From Candidatus Nitrotoga sp. LAW (GTDB taxonomy: Bacteria; Pseudomonadota; Gammaproteobacteria; Burkholderiales; Gallionellaceae), in assembly GCA_003402315.1 (NCBI GenBank), contig QFXI01000021.1, positions 186,001-250,000 on the forward strand: a DNA stretch of 64,000 nucleotides, written 5' to 3'. Positions 2 to 23,713 of the stretch are shown one piece after another. The stretch's first letter is position 1. Each line of letters opens with the position of its first letter. The notes below the pieces were generated by a model. The model saw nothing but the letters and a program-made list of their open reading frames with translations. It did not search any database and was not told the DNA's origin. The translations under genes and the position numbers were made by a program.

Positions 2-544
2 AACCGTCAGTATGGAACACGCTATCTGGCGGTGATGCCGACTAACCTTTATGGTCCGGGGGACAACTACGATTTGAGCAATAGTCATGTCATTCCGGCC
101 CTGATCCGCAAATTTCACGAAGCCAAAGTGCGCAATGAGCAGCAAGTGGTGGTTTGGGGTACCGGGTCGCCCAAGCGGGAGTTTCTTTACAGTGAAGACA
201 TGGCCGATGCCTGTGTTTATCTGATGAATTTACCGGACGACTCTTATTACAGGTTACTGGGCAGCGATGAAACAGTGAGTGGTAAATTTGAGCCACCTTT
301 GGTAAACATTGGTGTTGGTGAAGATGTGACCATCGGTGAATTGGCAGCATTGGTAAAGGAGACGGTAGGGTTTGATGGCAAGATCATTTTTGATATCTCC
401 AAACAGGATGGACCTCCGCGAAAATTACTGGATGTTTCCCGCCTGAATGCGATAGGTTGGCATGCGCCCACTTCACTGCAGGCTGGATTGGTAAAAGCCT
501 ATGTGGATTTTCTCAACAATTATGCATCTATCGGGACTCATTGA
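2..544 (+). CDS. fcl: GDP-L-fucose synthase, C-terminal part (5' truncated by window edge)
   Basis: This is the C-terminal 180 residues of a short-chain dehydrogenase/epimerase that makes GDP-L-fucose from GDP-4-keto-6-deoxymannose, a sugar donor for surface polysaccharide. The frame is open from base 2. The residues MPTNLYGPGDNYD just after the edge are the family's typical stretch following the catalytic Tyr-Lys region, and the later VWGTGSPKREFLYSEDMADA is equally characteristic. The catalytic YxxxK and the NAD-binding end lie outside the window. The stop overlaps the next start by one base (TGATG), so the two genes are probably translationally coupled in a polysaccharide operon. Confidence 0.88.
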   Translation, partial: NRQYGTRYLAVMPTNLYGPGDNYDLSNSHVIPALIRKFHEAKVRNEQQVVVWGTGSPKREFLYSEDMADACVYLMNLPDDSYYRLLGSDETVSGKFEPPLVNIGVGEDVTIGELAALVKETVGFDGKIIFDISKQDGPPRKLLDVSRLNAIGWHAPTSLQAGLVKAYVDFLNNYASIGTH

Positions 545-1308
545 TGGTTTTGCCTGTTGCACCCCTGATCACTGTTGCGATTCCGTCTTTCAATCAGGGC
601 CGTTATCTTGCCGATGCACTGGAGTCGATTTTCAACCAAGGTCTACCTGTAGAAGTTTTCGTTGCGGATGGAGGCTCCACCGACAATACCCTGTCCATCA
701 TCGAAAAATGGCAAGATAAACTAGCTTGGTGGCGTAGTGGCTCGGATGACGGGCAAGCCGCCGCGGTCAATGAAGCAATATCGTATGGAACAGCTCCTTT
801 TGTATGCTGGTTGAACTCTGACGACACTTATCTTGAGAATGGGTTGACAATTCTGCTGTCTTTCCTCCAATCTCATCCGGAAGTACCCTTTGCCTATGGT
901 CGAACCTGGAATACGGATGAGCATGGGAAACCCACCAAGCCCTACTGGACAGGAAAATTTTCGGAATGGCACTTGGCGCAGAGGTGCCTAATCTCACAAC
1001 CAGCGACTCTGATTCGGCGCGAGGTATGGGAAGCGGTAGGCGGCCTTGATGAAAGCCTCAAGTTTTCTATGGATTACGATCTGTGGTGGAAGATTCTACG
1101 CCGTTCTGGCCCCCCCGTTTTCGTTCCCGAATTTGTGGCTACCAACCGAATTCACGTGCAAACCAAAACCTCCAGCCAAAGATACCAGCACCATGCCGAG
1201 TCCGTGGCCGTAGTTAAAAAATATGCTGGCGGGGTGCCACTCAAATGGCATCTGGCCTGGCCATGGTCAGTATGGTTCAGGTCAAAAATAAACAAGCAAC
1301 AGGCATGA
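544..1308 (+). CDS. Family 2 glycosyltransferase
   Basis: Predicted cytoplasmic GT-A fold glycosyltransferase of 254 residues, probably adding a sugar to a lipid-linked surface polysaccharide. The N-terminus LITVAIPSFNQGRYL is the usual GT2 opening, VADGGSTDNT is the nucleotide-binding strand, and CWLNSDDTY contains the DD metal-binding motif. GLDESLKFSMDYDLWWKI is the acceptor-side motif. The ATG at 544 is chosen because it overlaps the preceding stop; the frame is open further upstream but that would overrun the fucose synthase gene. Donor and acceptor cannot be read from sequence. Confidence 0.85.
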   Translation: MVLPVAPLITVAIPSFNQGRYLADALESIFNQGLPVEVFVADGGSTDNTLSIIEKWQDKLAWWRSGSDDGQAAAVNEAISYGTAPFVCWLNSDDTYLENGLTILLSFLQSHPEVPFAYGRTWNTDEHGKPTKPYWTGKFSEWHLAQRCLISQPATLIRREVWEAVGGLDESLKFSMDYDLWWKILRRSGPPVFVPEFVATNRIHVQTKTSSQRYQHHAESVAVVKKYAGGVPLKWHLAWPWSVWFRSKINKQQA

Positions 1309-1399
1309 ACTTGTTCGTACCTACTATTGACGGACAACTTCAGTTCTTCGGCACCTTGGAGAAGGTAGCCAAGACTCGGAGTAATGGGGGGTTGTCTTG

Positions 1400-2563
1400 A
1401 TGAAAATAGCTGTAATTCATGATTGGCTAACAGTCTATGCGGGAGCCGAGCGGGTTCTGGAACAAATATTATTATGCTATCCAAATGCTGAGTTATATGG
1501 CGTAGTAGATTTTATTCCATCTAAAAAACGAGGCTTTCTACTGGGGAAAACAGTAACCACTTCGTTTGTGCAAAACTTGCCTTTCGCCAGAACTAAATAC
1601 AGACAGTATTTATCCTTAATGCCTTTAGCTATCGAGCAATTCGACCTGTCCGGCTATGACTTAGTACTTTCCAGTAGCCATGCAGTCGCAAAAGGCGTTA
1701 TTACAGGGCCAGACCAGCTTCATATCAGCTATGTTAATTCACCTATGCGCTATGCATGGGATTTACAACATCAATATTTGAAAGATTCGGGTTTGGATAG
1801 GGGCGTAAAGGGGTGGGTCGCCAAATGGCTACTGCACAAAATGCGAATATGGGATGTAAGAACGGCGAATGGCGTTGATTGCTTTATAGCAAACTCACAA
1901 TTTATTAGACGGCGGATTTTAAAAACCTATCGCCGCGATGCGGCGGTAATTCACCCGCCAGTAGAAATTTCGAGGTTTTCCTTACGTGAAAACAAGGAAA
2001 ATTTTTATTTGGCTGCCTCCCGTCTGGTACCTTACAAAAAAATGAATCTAATCGCGGAAGCATTTACTGCCATGCCGGAGCGACGTTTGGTGATCATTGG
2101 CGACGGACCAGAAATACAAAAAGTAAGAGCGAAGGCAGGACCCAATGTAACGGTGCTGGGATACCAGACTGATGATGTTATGTGCAATTACATGCAGCGC
2201 GCCAAAGCATTTGTATTTGCCGCAGAAGAGGATTTCGGCATTACCCCATTAGAAGCACAAGCTTGTGGTACGCCCGTCATTGCGTATGGCAGAGGCGGTG
2301 TTCTGGAAACAATTCGCGGCCTGGATGATGAACAGCCGACCGGGGTATTTTTTGCGGAGCAATCCATTCAATCCATTCAAGCAGCAGTGATTTCTTTTGA
2401 ACAGGAAGCCACCCGTATTTTACCAGTGTTCTGCCGTAATAATGCCTGTCGTTTTGCACCCGAGAGATTTCGTACAGAGTTTATGGCGTTCGTAGAAAAT
2501 GAGTGGCATCGATTCCAACAATCGCTGACGACGGCCACATCGGACAAAATGGGGTTGCCATGA
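1400..2563 (+). CDS. Family 4 glycosyltransferase
   Basis: GT-B fold glycosyltransferase of 387 residues, a retaining enzyme likely working in the same polysaccharide pathway as its neighbours. The N-terminal half opens MKIAVIHDWLTVYAGAERVL with the glycine-containing loop. The C-terminal half has AASRLVPYKKMNLI and the EEDFGITPLE motif (the E-x7-E of GT4 enzymes), followed by ACGTPVIAYGRGGVLE. A G-run a few bases upstream serves as ribosome binding site for the ATG at 1400. The stop overlaps the next ATG (ATGA). The 5' half is more AT-rich than the flanking genes. Confidence 0.88.
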   Translation: MKIAVIHDWLTVYAGAERVLEQILLCYPNAELYGVVDFIPSKKRGFLLGKTVTTSFVQNLPFARTKYRQYLSLMPLAIEQFDLSGYDLVLSSSHAVAKGVITGPDQLHISYVNSPMRYAWDLQHQYLKDSGLDRGVKGWVAKWLLHKMRIWDVRTANGVDCFIANSQFIRRRILKTYRRDAAVIHPPVEISRFSLRENKENFYLAASRLVPYKKMNLIAEAFTAMPERRLVIIGDGPEIQKVRAKAGPNVTVLGYQTDDVMCNYMQRAKAFVFAAEEDFGITPLEAQACGTPVIAYGRGGVLETIRGLDDEQPTGVFFAEQSIQSIQAAVISFEQEATRILPVFCRNNACRFAPERFRTEFMAFVENEWHRFQQSLTTATSDKMGLP

Positions 2564-3969
2564 CCTCGCGTAGCTTGCTTAAAGAAAATGCTGGCATTCT
2601 TGAATTAATCCAACGTTTTCTGGACCCTTTTGTGGTGGTAGCCACCGGAATGATGCTTTACGCGATCAAGTTCGGGTCTTGGGATTTTTCGGAAAATTAC
2701 GTTTTTGCGCTAATCGGTGTATTTCTGTTTTGCCTCGCAGTGTTTCCGTTTTTCGATCTATATCGCCCCCATCGGGGGGCCAGTCTGTGGGCTGAAATAC
2801 AGATTTTGGCAACCGCCTGGACCGTGGTTTGCGCTGGATTGATTATTGTGCTGTTTGCAACCAAATCCAGCACCTATTTTTCCCGTATATGGATTGGCCA
2901 ATGGGCAATAGCCGGGTTTGTCTCTTTGGTCGCCTTCAGAGTAGCGTTACGAATCGGACTGCGTTTTTTCCGTCGCCGTGGTTTTAATCTCCGTTTTATC
3001 GTTATCGCCGGCGCAGGAAAACTTGGGCAAGACGTGGCGCACCGCCTTGCCGCTTCACCATGGACCGGCTTGAAAGTGGTAAGCTTTTATGATGATGATC
3101 CGCGGATGCAGAAGCAGGTATTCGAGGGTATTCCGGTTCGTGGTGGCCTGCATCACCTTCCCCAAGAAGTAGCGGAACTCGGTATTGATCAAGTATGGAT
3201 TGCCCTGCCATTACAACACGATAAGCAAGTCAAATCACTGGTGGCACAGCTAAGTCATTTACCGGTACAAGTCACTTTCGTTCCTGACATTTACGGAGTT
3301 CATTTGCTCAACCATTCCATCGGCGAGGTAGCCGGTTTTCCAGTCATCCATTTGTTGGAATCACCTTTGTCTGGAGTACAAGGCATCGTTAAAGCCGTCG
3401 AGGACAAAATTATGGCGACATTGATTCTGCTGGTAGCCAGCCCCCTCATGTTACTTATCATGATCGGGGTCAAACTCAGTTCTCCGGGACCCATTTTCTT
3501 CGGGCAACTACGTGGCGGGTTGCACGGTGAACGCATCTGGGTTTGGAAATTCCGCACGATGAAACATCATGCCGAGCCATCTGAAAAAGTGCCTCAAGCA
3601 ATACCCGGCGATCACCGCATTACTGCCTTTGGCGCTTTTCTGCGCCGCACAAGCCTGGACGAGCTACCTCAGTTTTTTAATGTACTTAAAGGTGATATGT
3701 CAATTGTAGGGCCCCGTCCGCATGCGGTGGCGCATGACGAATTTTACCAGCAGCAAATCGATGCCTACATGCTGCGGCATCATGTCAAGCCAGGCATTAC
3801 CGGTTGGGCGCAGGTTAATGGCTGGAGAGGCGAAACGGGAGAGATCGAAAAAATGGAAATGCGAGTAAAGTACGATCTGTATTATATTAACAACTGGTCT
3901 TTATGGTTCGACCTGCGGATTATTTTTATGACGGTTTTTATGATGATCACAGGCAAAAATGCGCATTAA
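2560..3969 (+). CDS. Undecaprenyl-phosphate glucose phosphotransferase (WcaJ/polyprenyl glycosylphosphotransferase family)
   Basis: Initiating enzyme of exopolysaccharide repeat-unit synthesis: it moves a sugar-1-phosphate from a UDP-sugar to undecaprenyl phosphate at the inner membrane. The 469 residues show the family order: about four N-terminal membrane helices, a CoA-binding-like Rossmann domain (VIAGAGKLGQDVA, about 145-260), another hydrophobic helix near residue 285, and the C-terminal sugar-transferase domain with KFRTM, LRRTSLDELPQFFNVLKGD and SIVGPRP. The ATG at 2560 overlaps the previous stop and is preferred over a GTG at 2503. Sugar specificity (glucose or galactose) is not provable from sequence. 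Confidence 0.9.
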   Translation: MTSRSLLKENAGILELIQRFLDPFVVVATGMMLYAIKFGSWDFSENYVFALIGVFLFCLAVFPFFDLYRPHRGASLWAEIQILATAWTVVCAGLIIVLFATKSSTYFSRIWIGQWAIAGFVSLVAFRVALRIGLRFFRRRGFNLRFIVIAGAGKLGQDVAHRLAASPWTGLKVVSFYDDDPRMQKQVFEGIPVRGGLHHLPQEVAELGIDQVWIALPLQHDKQVKSLVAQLSHLPVQVTFVPDIYGVHLLNHSIGEVAGFPVIHLLESPLSGVQGIVKAVEDKIMATLILLVASPLMLLIMIGVKLSSPGPIFFGQLRGGLHGERIWVWKFRTMKHHAEPSEKVPQAIPGDHRITAFGAFLRRTSLDELPQFFNVLKGDMSIVGPRPHAVAHDEFYQQQIDAYMLRHHVKPGITGWAQVNGWRGETGEIEKMEMRVKYDLYYINNWSLWFDLRIIFMTVFMMITGKNAH

Positions 3970-16699: not shown

Positions 16700-17344
16700 A
16701 TGTGTCTGATTGCCAGTCATTTTGTTATCACTTTTCACGACAATTACTTGGCTAATCCAGTTTGGCCTGTTTCTTCGGTCATACATAATACCGATGGGAC
16801 TGAGTTATGGCGGTGGATCATCAAAAATCATTGCAGCAATTGCCTGCTTTGGGCAGAGGAGGATTTGGCTCGCCGTATTAAGGTCAGCGACATGGATATC
16901 GCCATTAATAAACGCGCTATTGATCGCCACAATCAGGCCCGCAACGATGCCATTGAATGCATTGATGAACAGTTATTAATTGCCCTTAAGCTAGTGGATG
17001 TTGTCTCTGCACAAACCGATTCGCCAACCATCAAAGTAACAAAGGGTGCGCGTTTGAATAGCGAGACCGCTGGCAGCATGGTGGATAGGTTGTCAATTCT
17101 TGCACTGAAGATATGCGCCATGCGTCAGCAGACCGAGCGTATTGAAGTTGATGAAGCTCATCGTTTAGCGTGCCGTAGAAAATTGGAGCGGTTGAATGAG
17201 CAACGCAGCGACTTGGGTGCTTGCTTGGACGAGTTGCTAACTGACACACAGGCGGGCCGAGCATACTTCAAAGTTTATCGCCAGTTCAAAATGTACAACG
17301 ACCCGCAGTTAAATCCGGCGTTGGTGGCAGAAAATAAATTATGA
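16700..17344 (+). CDS. DUF4254 family protein
   Basis: A 214-residue, mostly helical cytoplasmic protein. The pattern HNTDGTELWRWIIKNHCSNCLLWAEEDLARR at the N-terminus, the ETAGSMVDRLSILALKI core and the MRQQTER segment match what I recall of DUF4254, a family of unknown biochemical role often found beside heptosyltransferase-like and TPR glycosyltransferase genes. Here it converges on such a gene, with only 46 bases between the two stops. The ATG at 16700 is the first in frame. Confidence 0.75.
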   Translation: MCLIASHFVITFHDNYLANPVWPVSSVIHNTDGTELWRWIIKNHCSNCLLWAEEDLARRIKVSDMDIAINKRAIDRHNQARNDAIECIDEQLLIALKLVDVVSAQTDSPTIKVTKGARLNSETAGSMVDRLSILALKICAMRQQTERIEVDEAHRLACRRKLERLNEQRSDLGACLDELLTDTQAGRAYFKVYRQFKMYNDPQLNPALVAENKL

Positions 17345-17390: not shown

Positions 17391-19700
17391 TCACGCTGCC
17401 ATCTTGCACAACGCGTCCCGCACTCTCACCACCACCTCTTCCCAGTTGCCAATATTACATTGTCGGAATAAGCGAAGGGACGGGTACCACGGACTATCTT
17501 CCCTCTCCAGCAACCAGCGCCAGTCCGCCGCAAATGGCAATAGCACCCATGCCGGTTTGCCAATCGCCCCCGCAAGATGGGCAACCGATGTGTCGACACA
17601 AATCACGAGATCAAGATTGGCAATTAATGCCGCTGTACTGGCGAAATCTCCGATGTCTTCCGTCAAGCCGATGAAATGGAGATTGGTAAGCGGATCATTA
17701 GCTTGAGCCTCCCCAGAGCCCTTCTGCAGGTTAAAGAACACCACATTTTCTACGGTTCCAAACAAATCAAATTGACTTAGGGCTATGGAGCGATTCAGAT
17801 CGTTCTTGTTTCCAGGGCTTCCAGCCCACACCAAACCCACTTTTAATGCTGACCCTGTATCTGGCATGCGTTTCCGCCAATCTTCAACCAAGCCTTCATC
17901 CGGGAAAAGGTAAGGAGCCGCCACTGGTATTTCCACCTCAGCTGTGCGGAACCTGGGTGGCAGGCTGAGTAATGGACAGTGGAAATCGTATTGAGATAGG
18001 GGGTCGCCTCGCAAGATGATTTCGTGTATTCCTTCCACCTCTTTAAACAGGCGTTTCAGCGCAGGTTTGCATTCAAATAAGATGTGTCCCCCAAGGGAAG
18101 CCACCAGTGGCGCATATCGAATGAACTGTATAGCATCGCCAAAACCCTGTTCTGCGTGCAAAAGTATTGTTTTGCCGCGGAGGTCTTCGCCATTCCATAA
18201 CGGGCGTGTAAAACGATTTCCTTCACCAGCCAGTTCTGGCGTCTTCAGCCGCCATTCATATTCATCCCAGCCACGCAAAAAATTACCTGTTGCGAGTAAC
18301 GCCAGTGAAAGGTTCCAGTGTGCCTGAGCAAAATCGGGCCGTAAGGCAATTGCTCTTTCGTAATAAGTAACTGCTTCAGCGGGACGTCCTGTGGCTTCGA
18401 GAATCAAACCCAAGTTGTTATATGCATCCACATAGTTGGCGTTCAGGGCAATTGCTTGGCGATAACATTCAGTAGCCCGTTGATGATCCCCTATGGCTTG
18501 AAACACCAATCCTAGATTATTATGAAAATCCGGAATTGAAGGCTGAATCTGGATGGCTTGCTCAATCAATTTCAAGGCTTTTTCGTGGGAACCTGACTGA
18601 TAAGCGATGACCCCAGAATATTGCAACGCAACCGCGTTTTGCGGTTGTTCGTGCAAAATCAAGCCATACATTGTGTTGGCATGAACGATATGGCCCAACT
18701 GATGGTGCTTTAATGCGACGGACAGCATCCATTGAATGTCCTCCTCACGGGTTGCGCCACGTGGTATAGATGTCACTGCAATTTTTCCACAGCAGTTCTT
18801 GTACCGTTCACCGCTACCGCACGCACATGTCGCGTTTCGGCTTATCGTTTTTGAAGCAGGGGGGCTTGCCATTGCCGCCAATTGACTACGGGCATCCGAA
18901 TGCGCGGGATTGTTTTCAAGAATGCGTTGAAAGACCGCCTCAGCGAAACGAAACTGTCGCAGATCCCGGTAATTGATTCCAAGCCGGAAAAACTGGATAG
19001 AATTTGTAACATTGGATGGCAGGCTATGGATAAACTGTTCCACTTCATTCGGAGCAAGGGTCATCCATATGTTAAATAACCCGTGAAAGCCGAAAGGCTG
19101 GCGGGCTGGATAAGTGGTTTCGAAGGAAAATTTTTCTGCCTCGGATTCTGGCGCGAACCGCACTTGGTATTGCTCTTCCAGCAGGGGGCGATATTTGCGG
19201 CCGATCAGTTCATCTTCAGCCAACTCTTCATCGAATGGAATTGCCCTCGTGGCAAGTAACAATTTACGCGACCGCAGCGAAAATCCACCGTTACCAACTC
19301 TGAATCCATCTTTATGATGACCCCACACCGCACCGATATAGTCAAAGTTTAAAAATTCATTCGTCCATGCGTTGGGGTTAATGATGTAGCCGTCCCACTG
19401 AACAAGAAGAACAAAATCACTATCAATATAACGATGCAGTTCATGCAGTACAAACATCGAATATTCCTGCCGTGAGCGGATCGGAAGTATTTTTATTGTT
19501 TCAATATCTGGAAGGGAGAAATCTCGGTCCGTCAGGAAAAGGACGCGGTCAAAGACGCATTTTTCTTTAGATTTTTTCAATGCCTCGATGGCAAGTTCAT
19601 GATTGATGCAGTCCACGCAGCAAAGCGTGATAGTGATATCTTGTCCGATTTCCATCGCGAAGCCAGTTAATTTTGAACTTGAAGAATCAACAATTTTCAT
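17391..19700 (-). CDS. Large multidomain protein: DUF5672-like, SEC-C zinc motif, TPR repeats, GT9-like glycosyltransferase
   Basis: A 769-residue cytoplasmic protein. Residues 20-225 resemble DUF5672 (VLLVQWDGYIINPNAW, VGNGGFSLRSRKLLLA), a glycosyltransferase-like domain. A SEC-C zinc knuckle follows at about 289-305 (CACGSGERYKNCCG). Then come four or so TPR units at about 325-470 (the repeats containing NNLGLVF and NNLGLIL). The C-terminal 260 residues look like a heptosyltransferase/GT9 module (LLHAEQGFGDAIQFIRYAP, GLVWAGSPGNKND, CVDTSVAHLAGAIGKPAW). The last is usual for TPR-GT9 proteins that act on surface or protein glycans. The combination with SEC-C is unusual. The ATG at 19700 is well placed. 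Confidence 0.78.
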   Translation of the reverse strand: MKIVDSSSSKLTGFAMEIGQDITITLCCVDCINHELAIEALKKSKEKCVFDRVLFLTDRDFSLPDIETIKILPIRSRQEYSMFVLHELHRYIDSDFVLLVQWDGYIINPNAWTNEFLNFDYIGAVWGHHKDGFRVGNGGFSLRSRKLLLATRAIPFDEELAEDELIGRKYRPLLEEQYQVRFAPESEAEKFSFETTYPARQPFGFHGLFNIWMTLAPNEVEQFIHSLPSNVTNSIQFFRLGINYRDLRQFRFAEAVFQRILENNPAHSDARSQLAAMASPPASKTISRNATCACGSGERYKNCCGKIAVTSIPRGATREEDIQWMLSVALKHHQLGHIVHANTMYGLILHEQPQNAVALQYSGVIAYQSGSHEKALKLIEQAIQIQPSIPDFHNNLGLVFQAIGDHQRATECYRQAIALNANYVDAYNNLGLILEATGRPAEAVTYYERAIALRPDFAQAHWNLSLALLATGNFLRGWDEYEWRLKTPELAGEGNRFTRPLWNGEDLRGKTILLHAEQGFGDAIQFIRYAPLVASLGGHILFECKPALKRLFKEVEGIHEIILRGDPLSQYDFHCPLLSLPPRFRTAEVEIPVAAPYLFPDEGLVEDWRKRMPDTGSALKVGLVWAGSPGNKNDLNRSIALSQFDLFGTVENVVFFNLQKGSGEAQANDPLTNLHFIGLTEDIGDFASTAALIANLDLVICVDTSVAHLAGAIGKPAWVLLPFAADWRWLLEREDSPWYPSLRLFRQCNIGNWEEVVVRVRDALCKMAA

Positions 19701-20023: not shown

Positions 20024-22915
20024 TCAAAGAGACACGTATTTGGCGCTGCCCGGCATGGGCATGACTGCAGAATGCTCTGCATTGAACAGATAGCTCATAT
20101 GTTGCTTGGTGAGCAGGTTAAGCGGGGGTGGTAACCGATCATCGTTACGTCCTTGCAGCGGGCTACGGGACATGCCGCTTACCCCAATAATCCCGCAAAT
20201 TTTATCGGCTATATCCAATTGTACTGGAGTCATTTCATCATTACGATGTGCCGAGTACCGGGTTTCACCACTTAAATACATATCAATCTCGTTGGCAAGA
20301 GCAATCATCTCCACTTCGGCTTCAAAAACAGTGAATCGACCGACATCCATCACCACGGCCTGATGTTTCGACGATCTAATTCCCCTTAACGTATAACCCC
20401 TGACCAGTCGCTCCACCATGTTGCGCTCGCCGCCGAGTTTATTGCACACGTCATCACTCGCGGCCTGCTTGCCTTCCGGATGTGCAGGGCAATGGCTATA
20501 TGCCGCGTGCAGCAGCCCGGCCACCACGACTTCAATCCGAAAATCATAGCGCAGGAGCACGCTGGCGGTACCTGATAGATGGTTAATAAATGGCCGTCCA
20601 CACGAGCGATATCCACCGGTTACGAGTGCCTGTGCAATGAAATAGGCATTTCCTAACAAGGCAATCTCATCGGGTTGATAACCGCGCTCCATGGCCATAT
20701 CCAACAAGCCTGAACGGGTCTGCTGCAGCTCCTCCTTGCGCATGGCAGTGTTCCAGTCCGGGCGCGGAGGGATATTTGCCCTGAGCGGATCGATGCGGCC
20801 AACATGCTTGCTCAGAAAAGTACGTAATACGCCAAAGGAACGCTGATCGTTGCAAACGCCCCATTTTTTTGCAAAATGCAGAATGCATTGTTCGCCTGCT
20901 TCACGCGACCAGCGCAACCTGAAAATGGAAAGATCCCCTAGCAGAAAATCGGCGAAAGCAATGTAGTTCACACGCGATGCAGGTTCCATGTAAGTAGAGT
21001 AACCCAGCCGCTTAGCTGCAAGTGAAACATCGACATGATCGTTGACAGAAATGATTTCGTCGTCGAGCAGGCCATGCTCCAGCAGAAGCTGTGTACGAAC
21101 CAGCATGCAGTGGTATTCAACAAAATCCCAGGGCTTCCTGAAAAGCTGTTCGGGTACATCCTCTGGCCGGCGATTGATGAGCAGATGCTCCAATTCCATG
21201 ACAAGCCCATCACTGCCGACGTCATGGTAAAAATTAATCCTGCCGCCCGCCATGTGAATTTTTGGAACAGATTTGCCGTCGCTCCAGAGGTACAAAGGCC
21301 CCACAATACCGGCACCCGTCTCATCAGCGCAAGCGACTAACTTCTCAAGCCAGCCCGTTTCAACCTGAACATCGTTGTCGATGAATACGGTGTATTCAGA
21401 CGATATGCGATCCAGAACTTTTGTTCTGGCTTGATTGGGCCAAAGGAACTCTTCGGCGTGCACCAATTCAATCCCGTATTGGCGAGCCAGAGTTTCAAGT
21501 TGCTCACGAATCCAGACTGGTGAATGGCAATCCACGAAAATGAGTCGGAAAATGGGAGGTGTATTGGACAGGATAGACTTCAAGGCTTGGATTGTCAGAC
21601 TGTAACGTTCCCGTATCGTCATGACGATCGTAACGCGAGAGTTGCGGTCAGCATTTGTCATGTAGGGTACTTGATTTGGCCGGATAGCTCCGCAACATTC
21701 TTTAACGCGGCGTCCACTGCCGCATGGGCATGGCGCCAATCGGCTAACGCCTGCAGCGGGCGGCTGGACGGGAAGTGTTGCTCGAGCAGCTACAGGCAGG
21801 CGTCGGGCGAGAGCATCGGCAACAGCCCGAAATGTCGGATTGATTCCCGCTTGCCGGGCAAATTCAAGTGCATCTTCGTATTTATGGGAGGCCTCTAGAA
21901 TGAGCGCCATGGTCATGCTAAATTCGCCGACTGATGGATTGATTTCGATTGCCCGTCGGGCCAATTTTTCTGCCGTGGCCAACTGTCCGTCGTGAAGGTC
22001 CAGGCGGGCGAGCCCGTGCAAGGCACTGGGGTCGTCGGGGTACGCTTCAAGCGTTTTGTCGAACAGGGCGCGGGAGAGTACAAAATTCCCGTCATGAAAG
22101 GCGCGAACTGCCTCCATGCACATCTCCGTAAGCCTGCGGGTGTGATAGGACAATGCATCAACCCATTTGGCGCGCAACAGATTTTCCGAACGTAGAGTGC
22201 GGGATATATCCCGGTTCGCTCCAGGACCCGTGCCCGAGGTACCCAAGTCGGGCCGATAGTTGAATCCCACCACCGGAACAAATACAAAATCGCAGTGCTC
22301 TGCAATTTGATGCAAAAAATCGCGATCCTCACAAATTTCAAATGTTTCATCAAAACGGCAGCCCAAATCAATGACTTTGCGGCGGATAATTGCTGCCTGC
22401 CAGTAAAACAACGGTCCGTAGTACATCATTGCGCGGTTAAACGGGCCACCGAACAATTTTGTGACGTTCCCATGCTCATCAAGCATTCTGGTTCGACCGT
22501 AAAGTAGCAGCGTTTCAGGATGTTCACGGGAGGCGCTCAGCATTGCCGAAAGGAAGTCAAAATCGTAAGTGTCGTCGTCATCCAGAAAGCAAAACCACTC
22601 ACCATGCACGGCTTGCAAGCCTTCGTTGGCGGCATGTGGTCGAGGCAATTGGCGATGGCCGTCGACGATTCGAATCGAATGACCAGTCTGCCACGCTACA
22701 GCCGGCAGTGTCGGGTGGTTTCCACCGGTTGCATCAACAACTATTACTTCAACGTTCGGATAATCCTGCCGTGCGATTGATTCCAGCGCAACGCGAAGTT
22801 CTGGTCGCCCCATACTGCGCACAATGACGGAGACAAGTGGTAGAGTTGACTGATTGCCAGGACATACTGTAAGTGTCTTTTGTGAAGAATGGGTAGAGGA
22901 AAAGGTATGGAACAT
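20024..22915 (-). CDS. Giant fusion: GT2 - TPR - SEC-C - GT2 - HD-like domain
   Basis: A 963-residue cytoplasmic protein with five recognisable parts. Residues 26-225 are a GT2 glycosyltransferase (VSVIVRSMGRPELR, FCFLDDDDTYDFD). Residues about 265-360 are TPR-like helices. A SEC-C zinc motif is at 396-409 (CPCGSGRRVKECCG). Residues 427-690 are a second GT2-like domain (VTIVMTIRERYSLT, TVFIDNDVQVETGWL). The C-terminal 200 residues are HD-like (INHLSGTASVLL, VAGLLHAAYSH) and recall DUF6817 from memory. The role may be processive or dual-specificity protein or polysaccharide glycosylation; this is inference. It is bracketed by two copies of a small mobile element. Confidence 0.75.
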   Translation of the reverse strand: MFHTFSSTHSSQKTLTVCPGNQSTLPLVSVIVRSMGRPELRVALESIARQDYPNVEVIVVDATGGNHPTLPAVAWQTGHSIRIVDGHRQLPRPHAANEGLQAVHGEWFCFLDDDDTYDFDFLSAMLSASREHPETLLLYGRTRMLDEHGNVTKLFGGPFNRAMMYYGPLFYWQAAIIRRKVIDLGCRFDETFEICEDRDFLHQIAEHCDFVFVPVVGFNYRPDLGTSGTGPGANRDISRTLRSENLLRAKWVDALSYHTRRLTEMCMEAVRAFHDGNFVLSRALFDKTLEAYPDDPSALHGLARLDLHDGQLATAEKLARRAIEINPSVGEFSMTMALILEASHKYEDALEFARQAGINPTFRAVADALARRLPVAARATLPVQPPAAGVSRLAPCPCGSGRRVKECCGAIRPNQVPYMTNADRNSRVTIVMTIRERYSLTIQALKSILSNTPPIFRLIFVDCHSPVWIREQLETLARQYGIELVHAEEFLWPNQARTKVLDRISSEYTVFIDNDVQVETGWLEKLVACADETGAGIVGPLYLWSDGKSVPKIHMAGGRINFYHDVGSDGLVMELEHLLINRRPEDVPEQLFRKPWDFVEYHCMLVRTQLLLEHGLLDDEIISVNDHVDVSLAAKRLGYSTYMEPASRVNYIAFADFLLGDLSIFRLRWSREAGEQCILHFAKKWGVCNDQRSFGVLRTFLSKHVGRIDPLRANIPPRPDWNTAMRKEELQQTRSGLLDMAMERGYQPDEIALLGNAYFIAQALVTGGYRSCGRPFINHLSGTASVLLRYDFRIEVVVAGLLHAAYSHCPAHPEGKQAASDDVCNKLGGERNMVERLVRGYTLRGIRSSKHQAVVMDVGRFTVFEAEVEMIALANEIDMYLSGETRYSAHRNDEMTPVQLDIADKICGIIGVSGMSRSPLQGRNDDRLPPPLNLLTKQHMSYLFNAEHSAVMPMPGSAKYVSL

Positions 22916-23101: not shown

Positions 23102-23713
23102 GGCGGATTCAACTTCGAAGTGCAACAGCTAATGTTGGTTTGGTGTAGCGCACTTCTATCTCAAATAATATTTCATGCAATGATCTAAAACCCAGCACTT
23201 TTCGTGGCCGGTGGTTGCGCCGTTCTACCGCCTACCACACTTGCTCCTCGGTAACGCCAGTCAACTCCATGCCTTTGGGAAAGTATTGCCGGAATAACCC
23301 ATTGTTGTTCTCGTTCTCCAGCCGATTGGCAGCCTGTTCCGGACTGAGGCCTCCCCGGATCAACCGCTCGACTTCCACCCAGCTCCCCGATGAGAATTGC
23401 TTGCCATTGATACAAGCTTGCCGGCGCTGGTCACGTAACGATTGCGCCTGTTTTGGCCGCCAGCTGCGTTGACCTTTGTTTTGCCTGAACTCCCGTAAAA
23501 TCGTCGACTTGTCCACGCCTATCTTTTGGGCAGTCCGAGTTTGATTCAAACCCGCTTGTTTTAATCCGTCAATCTGATATCGTTGCCCGCTGGTGAGCTG
23601 CTTATATTTCTTCATCTGTGCTCCTTATTGCTGGGTCGTTTAAATGGCTCCGATATTAACGCAGCTCGTCACCTAAATTCGCTTACAAAAGTCGCGCTTC
23701 AGAGCTGAATCCG
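23102..23713 (-). mobile_element. Internally deleted IS30-family insertion sequence
   Basis: An element of about 612 bp with both IS30-type ends: GGCGGATTCAACTTCGAAG at the left and, on the opposite strand at the right, CGGATTCAGCTCTGAAG. A complete member would be about 1.0-1.1 kb. It contains only a shortened transposase gene. Both end types are found again at 46337-46412. It interrupts or abuts the second copy of the MITE-like element. Confidence 0.8.
23109..23615 (-). pseudogene. IS30 transposase with catalytic core deleted and an in-frame stop
   Basis: The frame starts MKKYKQLTSGQRYQIDGLK with the IS30 helix-turn-helix (STILREFRQNK) and continues to GLSPEQAANRLE. It then jumps directly to the C-terminal motif LFRQYFPKGMELTG; the DDE catalytic domain, about 150 residues, is missing without loss of frame. 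A TAG at 23232-23234 follows VW, where relatives have Gln. Reading through it gives 40 further residues in frame (NHRPRKVLGFRSLHEILF), the normal C-terminus, ending inside the left terminal repeat. Not functional as a transposase; the N-terminal DNA-binding half could still be made. Confidence 0.85.

Follow-up and report, generated by a model that had tools for sequence, protein, structure and literature searches.

A 963-residue Nitrotoga protein joining two GT2 domains, TPRs, a SEC-C motif and a probable pseudo-hydrolase domain

Locus and domain order of the 963-residue protein

The window analyzed here is a 64,000-nucleotide stretch of the Candidatus Nitrotoga sp. LAW genome, and positions refer to it unless another locus is named. 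In the ORF list, the gene for a 963-aa protein runs on the minus strand, from 22915 to 20024; the plus strand of 20024-22915, read in the given frame, contains many stops. A sequence-only reading had proposed that this protein joins a GT2 glycosyltransferase domain (GT2a), TPRs, a SEC-C motif, a second GT2 domain (GT2b) and an HD-like domain. Pfam searches with the minus-strand product confirmed these domains and their order, and the motifs named in that reading were located at residues 112 (DDDD), 396 (CPCGSGRRVKECC), 513 (DND) and 801 (LLHA).

Table 1. Features of the 963-aa gene and of its two neighbors in the window; residue numbers are those of the 963-aa protein.
Feature	Position	Strand	Evidence
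Neighbor, 769 aa: DUF5672 - SEC-C - TPR - GT9	17391..19700	-	Pfam; SEC-C at 18783-18839
963-aa protein: GT2a - TPR - SEC-C - GT2b - probable pseudo-HD - tail	20024..22915	-	ORF, Pfam, orthologs, dN/dS
C-terminal tail, residues 935-963	20027..20113	-	dN/dS; low pLDDT; ortholog alignment
Probable degenerate RelA/SpoT-type HD domain (pseudo-hydrolase), ~residues 745-885	20261..20683	-	
Second GT2, ~residues 429-655, DND (513-515), D/E-H-[VI]-D motif (626-629)	20951..21631	-	Pfam; MftF model; ortholog alignment
Apparently exchanged (mosaic) segment of second GT2, ~residues 550-640	20996..21268	-	AU test; identity table
SEC-C metal-binding motif, residues 391-411, CPCGSGRRVKECC	21683..21745	-	Pfam; 4 Cys in orthologs
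TPR region, residues 268-356	21848..22114	-	Pfam TPR_19/TPR_17/TPR_2
First GT2, ~residues 26-230, DDDD (112-115), EDRD (196-199)	22226..22840	-	Pfam; PglI 9jma match; motifs
127-aa ORF, HTH_38 match only	23232..23615	-	Pfam; synteny

The Glycos_transf_2 family (PF00535) matched the protein in two stretches with 104.1 bits (cut-off 23.3), and the acidic motifs of D-x-D type (DDDD and DND) are kept in both GT2 domains, which places them in this family. We take both to be of GT-A fold. The closest solved glycosyltransferase relative of the first GT2 domain was PglI (9jma; phmmer E 1.2e-11), which, judged by its name, is presumably an enzyme of lipid-linked glycan synthesis. The next solved match was heparosan synthase B (8vh7; E 4e-4), over residues 19-151 only. 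The second GT2 domain matched the NCBIfam MftF model in two stretches, best at 421-541, with 75.7 bits, below the model cut-off of 280. Both GT2 domains may be catalytically active.

TPR_19 was matched with 30.0 bits at residues 273-336. SEC-C (PF02810) scored 19.2 bits at residues 395-409 in the protein scan, just missing the cut-off of 20.4, and this copy lay outside the four SEC-C matches of its own genome at E <= 0.001. The motif C-x-C-G-S-G-x(6)-C-C/H is present, five listed orthologs scored 32.9-33.3 bits, and the four cysteines were kept in all nine aligned orthologs spanning SEC-C, which assigns the motif to PF02810. In the C-terminal domain, DUF6817 (PF20680; cut-off 25.2) scored 20.8 bits at residues 773-815 in the protein scan and 25.4 bits, just above the cut-off, in the DNA search, where orthologs reached 31.0 bits and four genomes of the genus stayed below 25.2; HD_4 scored 14.7 bits. 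The Pfam matches anticipated earlier were obtained outright for Glycos_transf_2, whereas SEC-C and DUF6817 fell below their curated cut-offs in the protein scan of the window's own copy and exceeded them in orthologs. A simple hydropathy window revealed no membrane-spanning or strongly hydrophobic segment in the protein (top 19-residue mean 1.28).

The 769-aa neighbor is a second SEC-C/TPR glycosyltransferase of different make-up, and its gene is convergent with that of a DUF4254 protein at 16700-17344 (+). The HTH_38 fragment, which we take to be an IS30-type insertion-sequence remnant, lies upstream of the 963-aa gene at the edge of a rearranged locus. Upstream sequence was available for five ortholog loci. 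In four of them (L025, L026, L030, and L036), the gene comes after sucC or sucCD, so named from their sequences, and a 484-487-aa gene; the flank in L027 contains different genes. The surroundings of the window copy, between the HTH_38 remnant and the 769-aa protein, are unlike those of its orthologs. No client gene, and hence no operon with one, was evident beside the gene in the loci read. Further away, an exopolysaccharide-type cluster at 457-3969 (+) is made up of genes for GT2, GT1, and the initiating sugar transferase Bac_transf.

Orthologs and exchange of protein parts

A GT2b-HD profile matched 10 of 150 Gallionellaceae genomes, all belonging to the genus of the window (10/19), and none of the 131 family genomes searched from other genera. 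The genome count that the sequence-only reading had called for gave orthologs in 9 of the 19 genomes of the genus. Of the nine orthologs, seven have ORFs of almost full length (922-966 aa), and the other two run into contig ends. In Nitrotoga sp. 1052 (G009), just ~188 C-terminal residues are left (L035:9941-10567), and this indicates that the gene can be lost. The genes beside this fragment also follow the intact gene in L025, as expected of a deletion remnant. When 84,980 species genomes were scanned with a pattern that reaches only close relatives, 15 loci were returned: 10 in Nitrotoga, 2 in MAGs (L025 and L028) and 3 in which the first GT2 domain alone was matched, at 27-30% identity.

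All domains are under purifying selection. In six ortholog pairs, dN/dS was 0.07-0.34 in every domain (GT2a not computable in one pair), with 0.09-0.23 for the linker and SEC-C and 0.18-0.29 for the HD domain. The C-terminal tail, with 0.24-0.51, is under weaker constraint and varies in length among orthologs. A chance ORF or a pseudogene was ruled out by the dN/dS values together with the orthologs. Five orthologs with apparent internal stops start near residue 17-19 and have open frames of 922-952 aa; these stops were interpreted as preceding the start used in those orthologs. Residues 415-963 had no phage match and no viral-contig relative, and the plasmid search returned a single weak match, at 23.8% identity and confined to GT2, so that a phage or plasmid origin of this part was rejected.

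Four Nitrotoga proteins of 704-722 aa (L031-L034) share most of residues 1-397 at 79-85% identity. Their back end resembles the NodZ fucosyltransferase (2hhc; E 5.5e-4 over 50 residues); the one scanned, in L033, had no Pfam match at E 1e-4. In the alignment, these NodZ-type sisters showed no SEC-C, although GT2-TPR was kept, and the front end can thus work without SEC-C. In the GT2a tree, their fronts grouped with the window and L025 and not with the other ortholog lineage (97/97). A collinear GT2-TPR-SEC-C arrangement was found at 38% identity in L017 (1144 aa) and, at profile positions 5-395 of 396 (E 2.4e-119), in L154 (852 aa), which belongs to another family of the order and whose SEC-C scored 20.2 bits against the cut-off of 20.4. 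Both proteins carry a Glycos_transf_1 (GT4-type) back end, in contrast to the GT2 and pseudo-HD domains of the 963-aa protein. Across the order, 65 of 300 genomes matched the GT2-TPR-SEC-C block at E <= 1e-15, mostly in the GT2 part alone; besides the window, L154 was the only match among those listed that spanned SEC-C in an open frame, and a match in G058 reached position 383 with three internal stops. By sequence, the GT2-TPR-SEC-C front end is an exchangeable module.

Exchange was also seen within the orthologs. Five of them (L008, L009, L026, L027, and L030) cluster as a clade in the trees of GT2a (97/97), of the N-terminal part of GT2b (98/99), and of HD (100/100). Over alignment columns 565-665, which correspond to about residues 550-640, L030 joined the window instead of its clade. 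Forcing the clade there cost dlnL 71.3 with an AU test p of 8e-62, which is not the p value of a pre-planned test because these columns were chosen after the identity table; for the TPR segment, the AU test gave p 0.42. L028 has the opposite mix to L030. The tree switch of L030 and the reverse mix in L028 indicate, at the sequence level, that a stretch of the second GT2 domain was swapped between ortholog lineages. This stretch probably lies near the acceptor site.

SEC-C motifs on Gallionellaceae transferases

A survey of 61 genomes gave 143 SEC-C matches in 37 Gallionellaceae and 49 in 24 genomes of other families (Mann-Whitney p 0.003, treating the genomes as unrelated). From these 192 matches, 41 proteins (32 from Gallionellaceae and 9 from other families) were scanned for domains; they were picked non-randomly, according to the length of the frame and their spread, frames as long as SecA were avoided, and L088b, L093, L120, and L126 were left out. 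A recognized transferase was present in 23 of the 32 Gallionellaceae proteins: GT41, to which protein O-GlcNAc transferases belong, in 11, a methyltransferase in 4, a sulfotransferase in 1, GT2, alone or alongside another transferase, in 6 (including the 963-aa protein), and GT9 in the 769-aa neighbor. No transferase was recognized in L084, L094, L097, L119, L121 (25 of 30 families visible; a transferase could be hidden), L122, L123, L129, and L131. The nine proteins scanned from other families had none; L154, found otherwise, has one. SEC-C was N-terminal in 19 of the 23 transferase-bearing proteins and internal in four (the 963-aa protein, the 769-aa neighbor, L081, and L017), and it also lies between modules in L154.

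Several of these proteins show how SEC-C is placed. In the window's own genome, L080:2568-4979 (C9) encodes an 803-aa protein with SEC-C, a long TPR array and GT41 (OGT-like), and ten more of the scanned Gallionellaceae proteins combine SEC-C with GT41. The GT41-type proteins share with the 963-aa protein the SEC-C and TPR ahead of a glycosyltransferase but have an N-terminal SEC-C and a GT41 back end, whereas the 963-aa protein has GT2 domains and an internal SEC-C. L081:354-3836 (own genome, C21:94000-98500) is an 1160-aa protein with SEC-C followed by GT2 and Glycos_transf_1 domains; its N-terminal ~340 residues, without a Pfam match, looked beta-propeller-like by eye. L097:798-3731, in a genome of the same genus, is a 977-aa AAA_22 protein with SEC-C at the extreme C-terminus.

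It was previously suggested that the position of SEC-C between two glycosyltransferases points to substrate capture. By sequence comparison, this position is not peculiar to the 963-aa protein, because GT2-TPR-SEC-C recurs, with SEC-C at the same place, ahead of other back ends. The capture idea itself fits, by analogy, since SEC-C recurs at the head or junction of TPR-transferases and the SecA metal-binding domain (MBD) binds ribosomes (PMC6620043, excerpt). YecA and YchJ have an MBD almost identical to that of SecA, and more Sec-linked MBD proteins have been suspected (PMC8076867, excerpt). The mycobacterial protein Rv0613c, which combines a SEC-C motif with a TPR-like region, interacts with HBHA, an adhesin of the cell surface (PMC6032435, excerpt). 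Alternatively, SEC-C could be just a short structural linker, or a relic left where modules meet, that binds neither client nor ribosome, in a protein that is otherwise a fused glycosyltransferase pair. Its internal position between modules in five proteins and its absence from the NodZ-type sisters agree with this explanation, which we nevertheless consider unlikely: the four conserved cysteines and the low dN/dS of the linker and SEC-C argue against it, and an N-terminal SEC-C, as in most of the transferase-bearing proteins, has nothing there to link.

The C-terminal domain and a proposed role

The predicted fold of the C-terminal domain is that of the Rel/SpoT HD domain. Its profile matched DUF6817 (hhalign E 8.1e-7, prob 91.6; the DUF6817 profile holds five sequences) as well as SpoT, whereas two unrelated control alignments gave prob 0.2 each and a direct comparison of DUF6817 with SpoT gave no detectable match (prob 1.8). 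By profile, the domain is thus intermediate between DUF6817 and the Rel/SpoT HD fold. A check of SpoT itself covered 11 loci, from each of which the longest frame with LLHD[VTA] was chosen, so that this motif is itself part of the selection; NCBIfam confirmed 2 of the 11 as SpoT. In place of HDxxED, the window copy has H803-A-A-Y-S-H808. H779 and H803 of the HD site are kept, but in each of the 10 rows of the HD alignment other residues stand in place of the Asp of HD and of the ED that follows. Pfam found no synthetase domain in the protein.

Because the Asp and ED are absent from all 10 rows, the sequence argues against filing the domain as a hydrolase. It is probably a catalytically degenerate SpoT/Rel-type hydrolase fold; the earlier term "HD-like" holds for the fold and is sharpened accordingly. 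The domain might still hydrolyze a different nucleotide or be an HD variant that depends on metal, as the two HD-site histidines and the R-S-x-G-x-P-x-I-x-H loop are kept, and in DUF6817 proteins two histidines are likewise conserved at these columns, together with an H-[AS]-x-Y-G motif. We regard this as quite unlikely: in addition to the replaced Asp and ED, the presumed later catalytic Asp (LANE versus SpoT LADR, by visual comparison) gives way to Asn in nine rows and to Lys in the tenth. With the catalytic HDxxED lost, a regulatory role is more likely, and an inactive hydrolase domain is known to regulate RelA (PMC8012599, excerpt). The C-terminal domain differs from the RelA pseudo-hydrolase and SpoT HD in being fused to glycosyltransferases without a synthetase domain and in the replacement of HDxxED.

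We infer, with a rough probability of 0.4, that the 963-aa protein is a cytoplasmic two-site protein glycosyltransferase with TPR/SEC-C client capture and an allosteric pseudo-HD domain. The TPR block and the SEC-C metal knuckle would together serve as a docking site for a client that is unfolded or nascent, modeled on the FlmG TPR holding flagellin and on the SecA MBD contacting ribosomes. GT2a and then GT2b would add sugars successively, and the pseudo-HD would serve as an allosteric or ligand-sensing domain, like the RelA pseudo-hydrolase. A protein as the client is suggested by analogy with FlmG, Rv0613c, and the SecA MBD. In Caulobacter FlmG, the TPR domain binds flagellin and gives specificity in a modular enzyme (PMC7591256, excerpt). 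FlmG-type protein O-glycosyltransferases, like the 963-aa protein, combine a TPR block and a glycosyltransferase in one chain, but FlmG consists of TPR and GT-B parts only (same excerpt); by Pfam, both glycosyltransferase domains here are GT2, with SEC-C and pseudo-HD in addition. The acidic GT2 motifs, the low dN/dS, the lack of a strongly hydrophobic segment, the recurrence of SEC-C/TPR/transferase proteins, 11 of them with GT41, and the occurrence of the block with other back ends speak for a protein glycosyltransferase. Speaking against it are the lack of an evident client gene, the sisters without SEC-C, the subthreshold SEC-C and DUF6817 in the window copy, and the solved relatives. Our confidence in a protein acceptor is held at this level because PglI and the next match, the polysaccharide synthase heparosan synthase, point the opposite way.

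These relatives suit a bifunctional GT2-GT2 enzyme for surface polysaccharide or lipid-linked glycan, in which TPR and SEC-C just assemble it with cell-envelope enzymes. The exopolysaccharide-type cluster in the window agrees with this, and exchange of second-GT2 alleles is expected of varying surface glycans. Heparosan synthase also has two glycosyltransferase domains in one chain; however, only the first GT2 domain of the 963-aa protein aligns with it, over the confined stretch noted above, and TPR, SEC-C, and HD are extra. The loci read contained no operon with glycan genes, although the window neighbor is a glycosyltransferase, and the back ends joined to SEC-C/TPR in Gallionellaceae are mostly GT41, methyltransferase, and sulfotransferase. 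We consider this polysaccharide or lipid-linked role possible but on the doubtful side.

Each of the domains is already known, as are TPR-transferases. The statement of the sequence-only reading that it knew of no characterized protein with this order agreed with a literature search on SEC-C with glycosyltransferase or TPR, in which titles and abstract openings gave no SEC-C glycosyltransferase paper. In the literature searched, no description was found of the domain combination, the fused pseudo-SpoT domain or the exchangeable GT2-TPR-SEC-C front end, nor any work on DUF6817 or joining ppGpp, an HD domain, and a glycosyltransferase domain. The term "SEC-C" is also absent from the main text of a pangenome study of Gallionellaceae (PMC10734462). 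SEC-C, best known from SecA, may be a portable tag on Gallionellaceae TPR-transferases, in agreement with the published suspicion of more SecA-like MBD proteins in the Sec pathway (PMC8076867, excerpt).

A more far-reaching version of the protein glycosyltransferase reading, which we think very unlikely, is an alarmone-gated enzyme docked to the ribosome or Sec machinery. Here, SEC-C would carry the enzyme to nascent exported proteins, the TPRs would select among them, the two GT2 domains would build a disaccharide before export, and the dead SpoT-like domain would sense starvation, still binding (p)ppGpp or a related nucleotide and tuning the enzyme up or down. A glycosyltransferase that carries a probable degenerate SpoT-like domain would allow a direct test of whether the stringent response is linked to glycosylation of proteins or of the cell surface.
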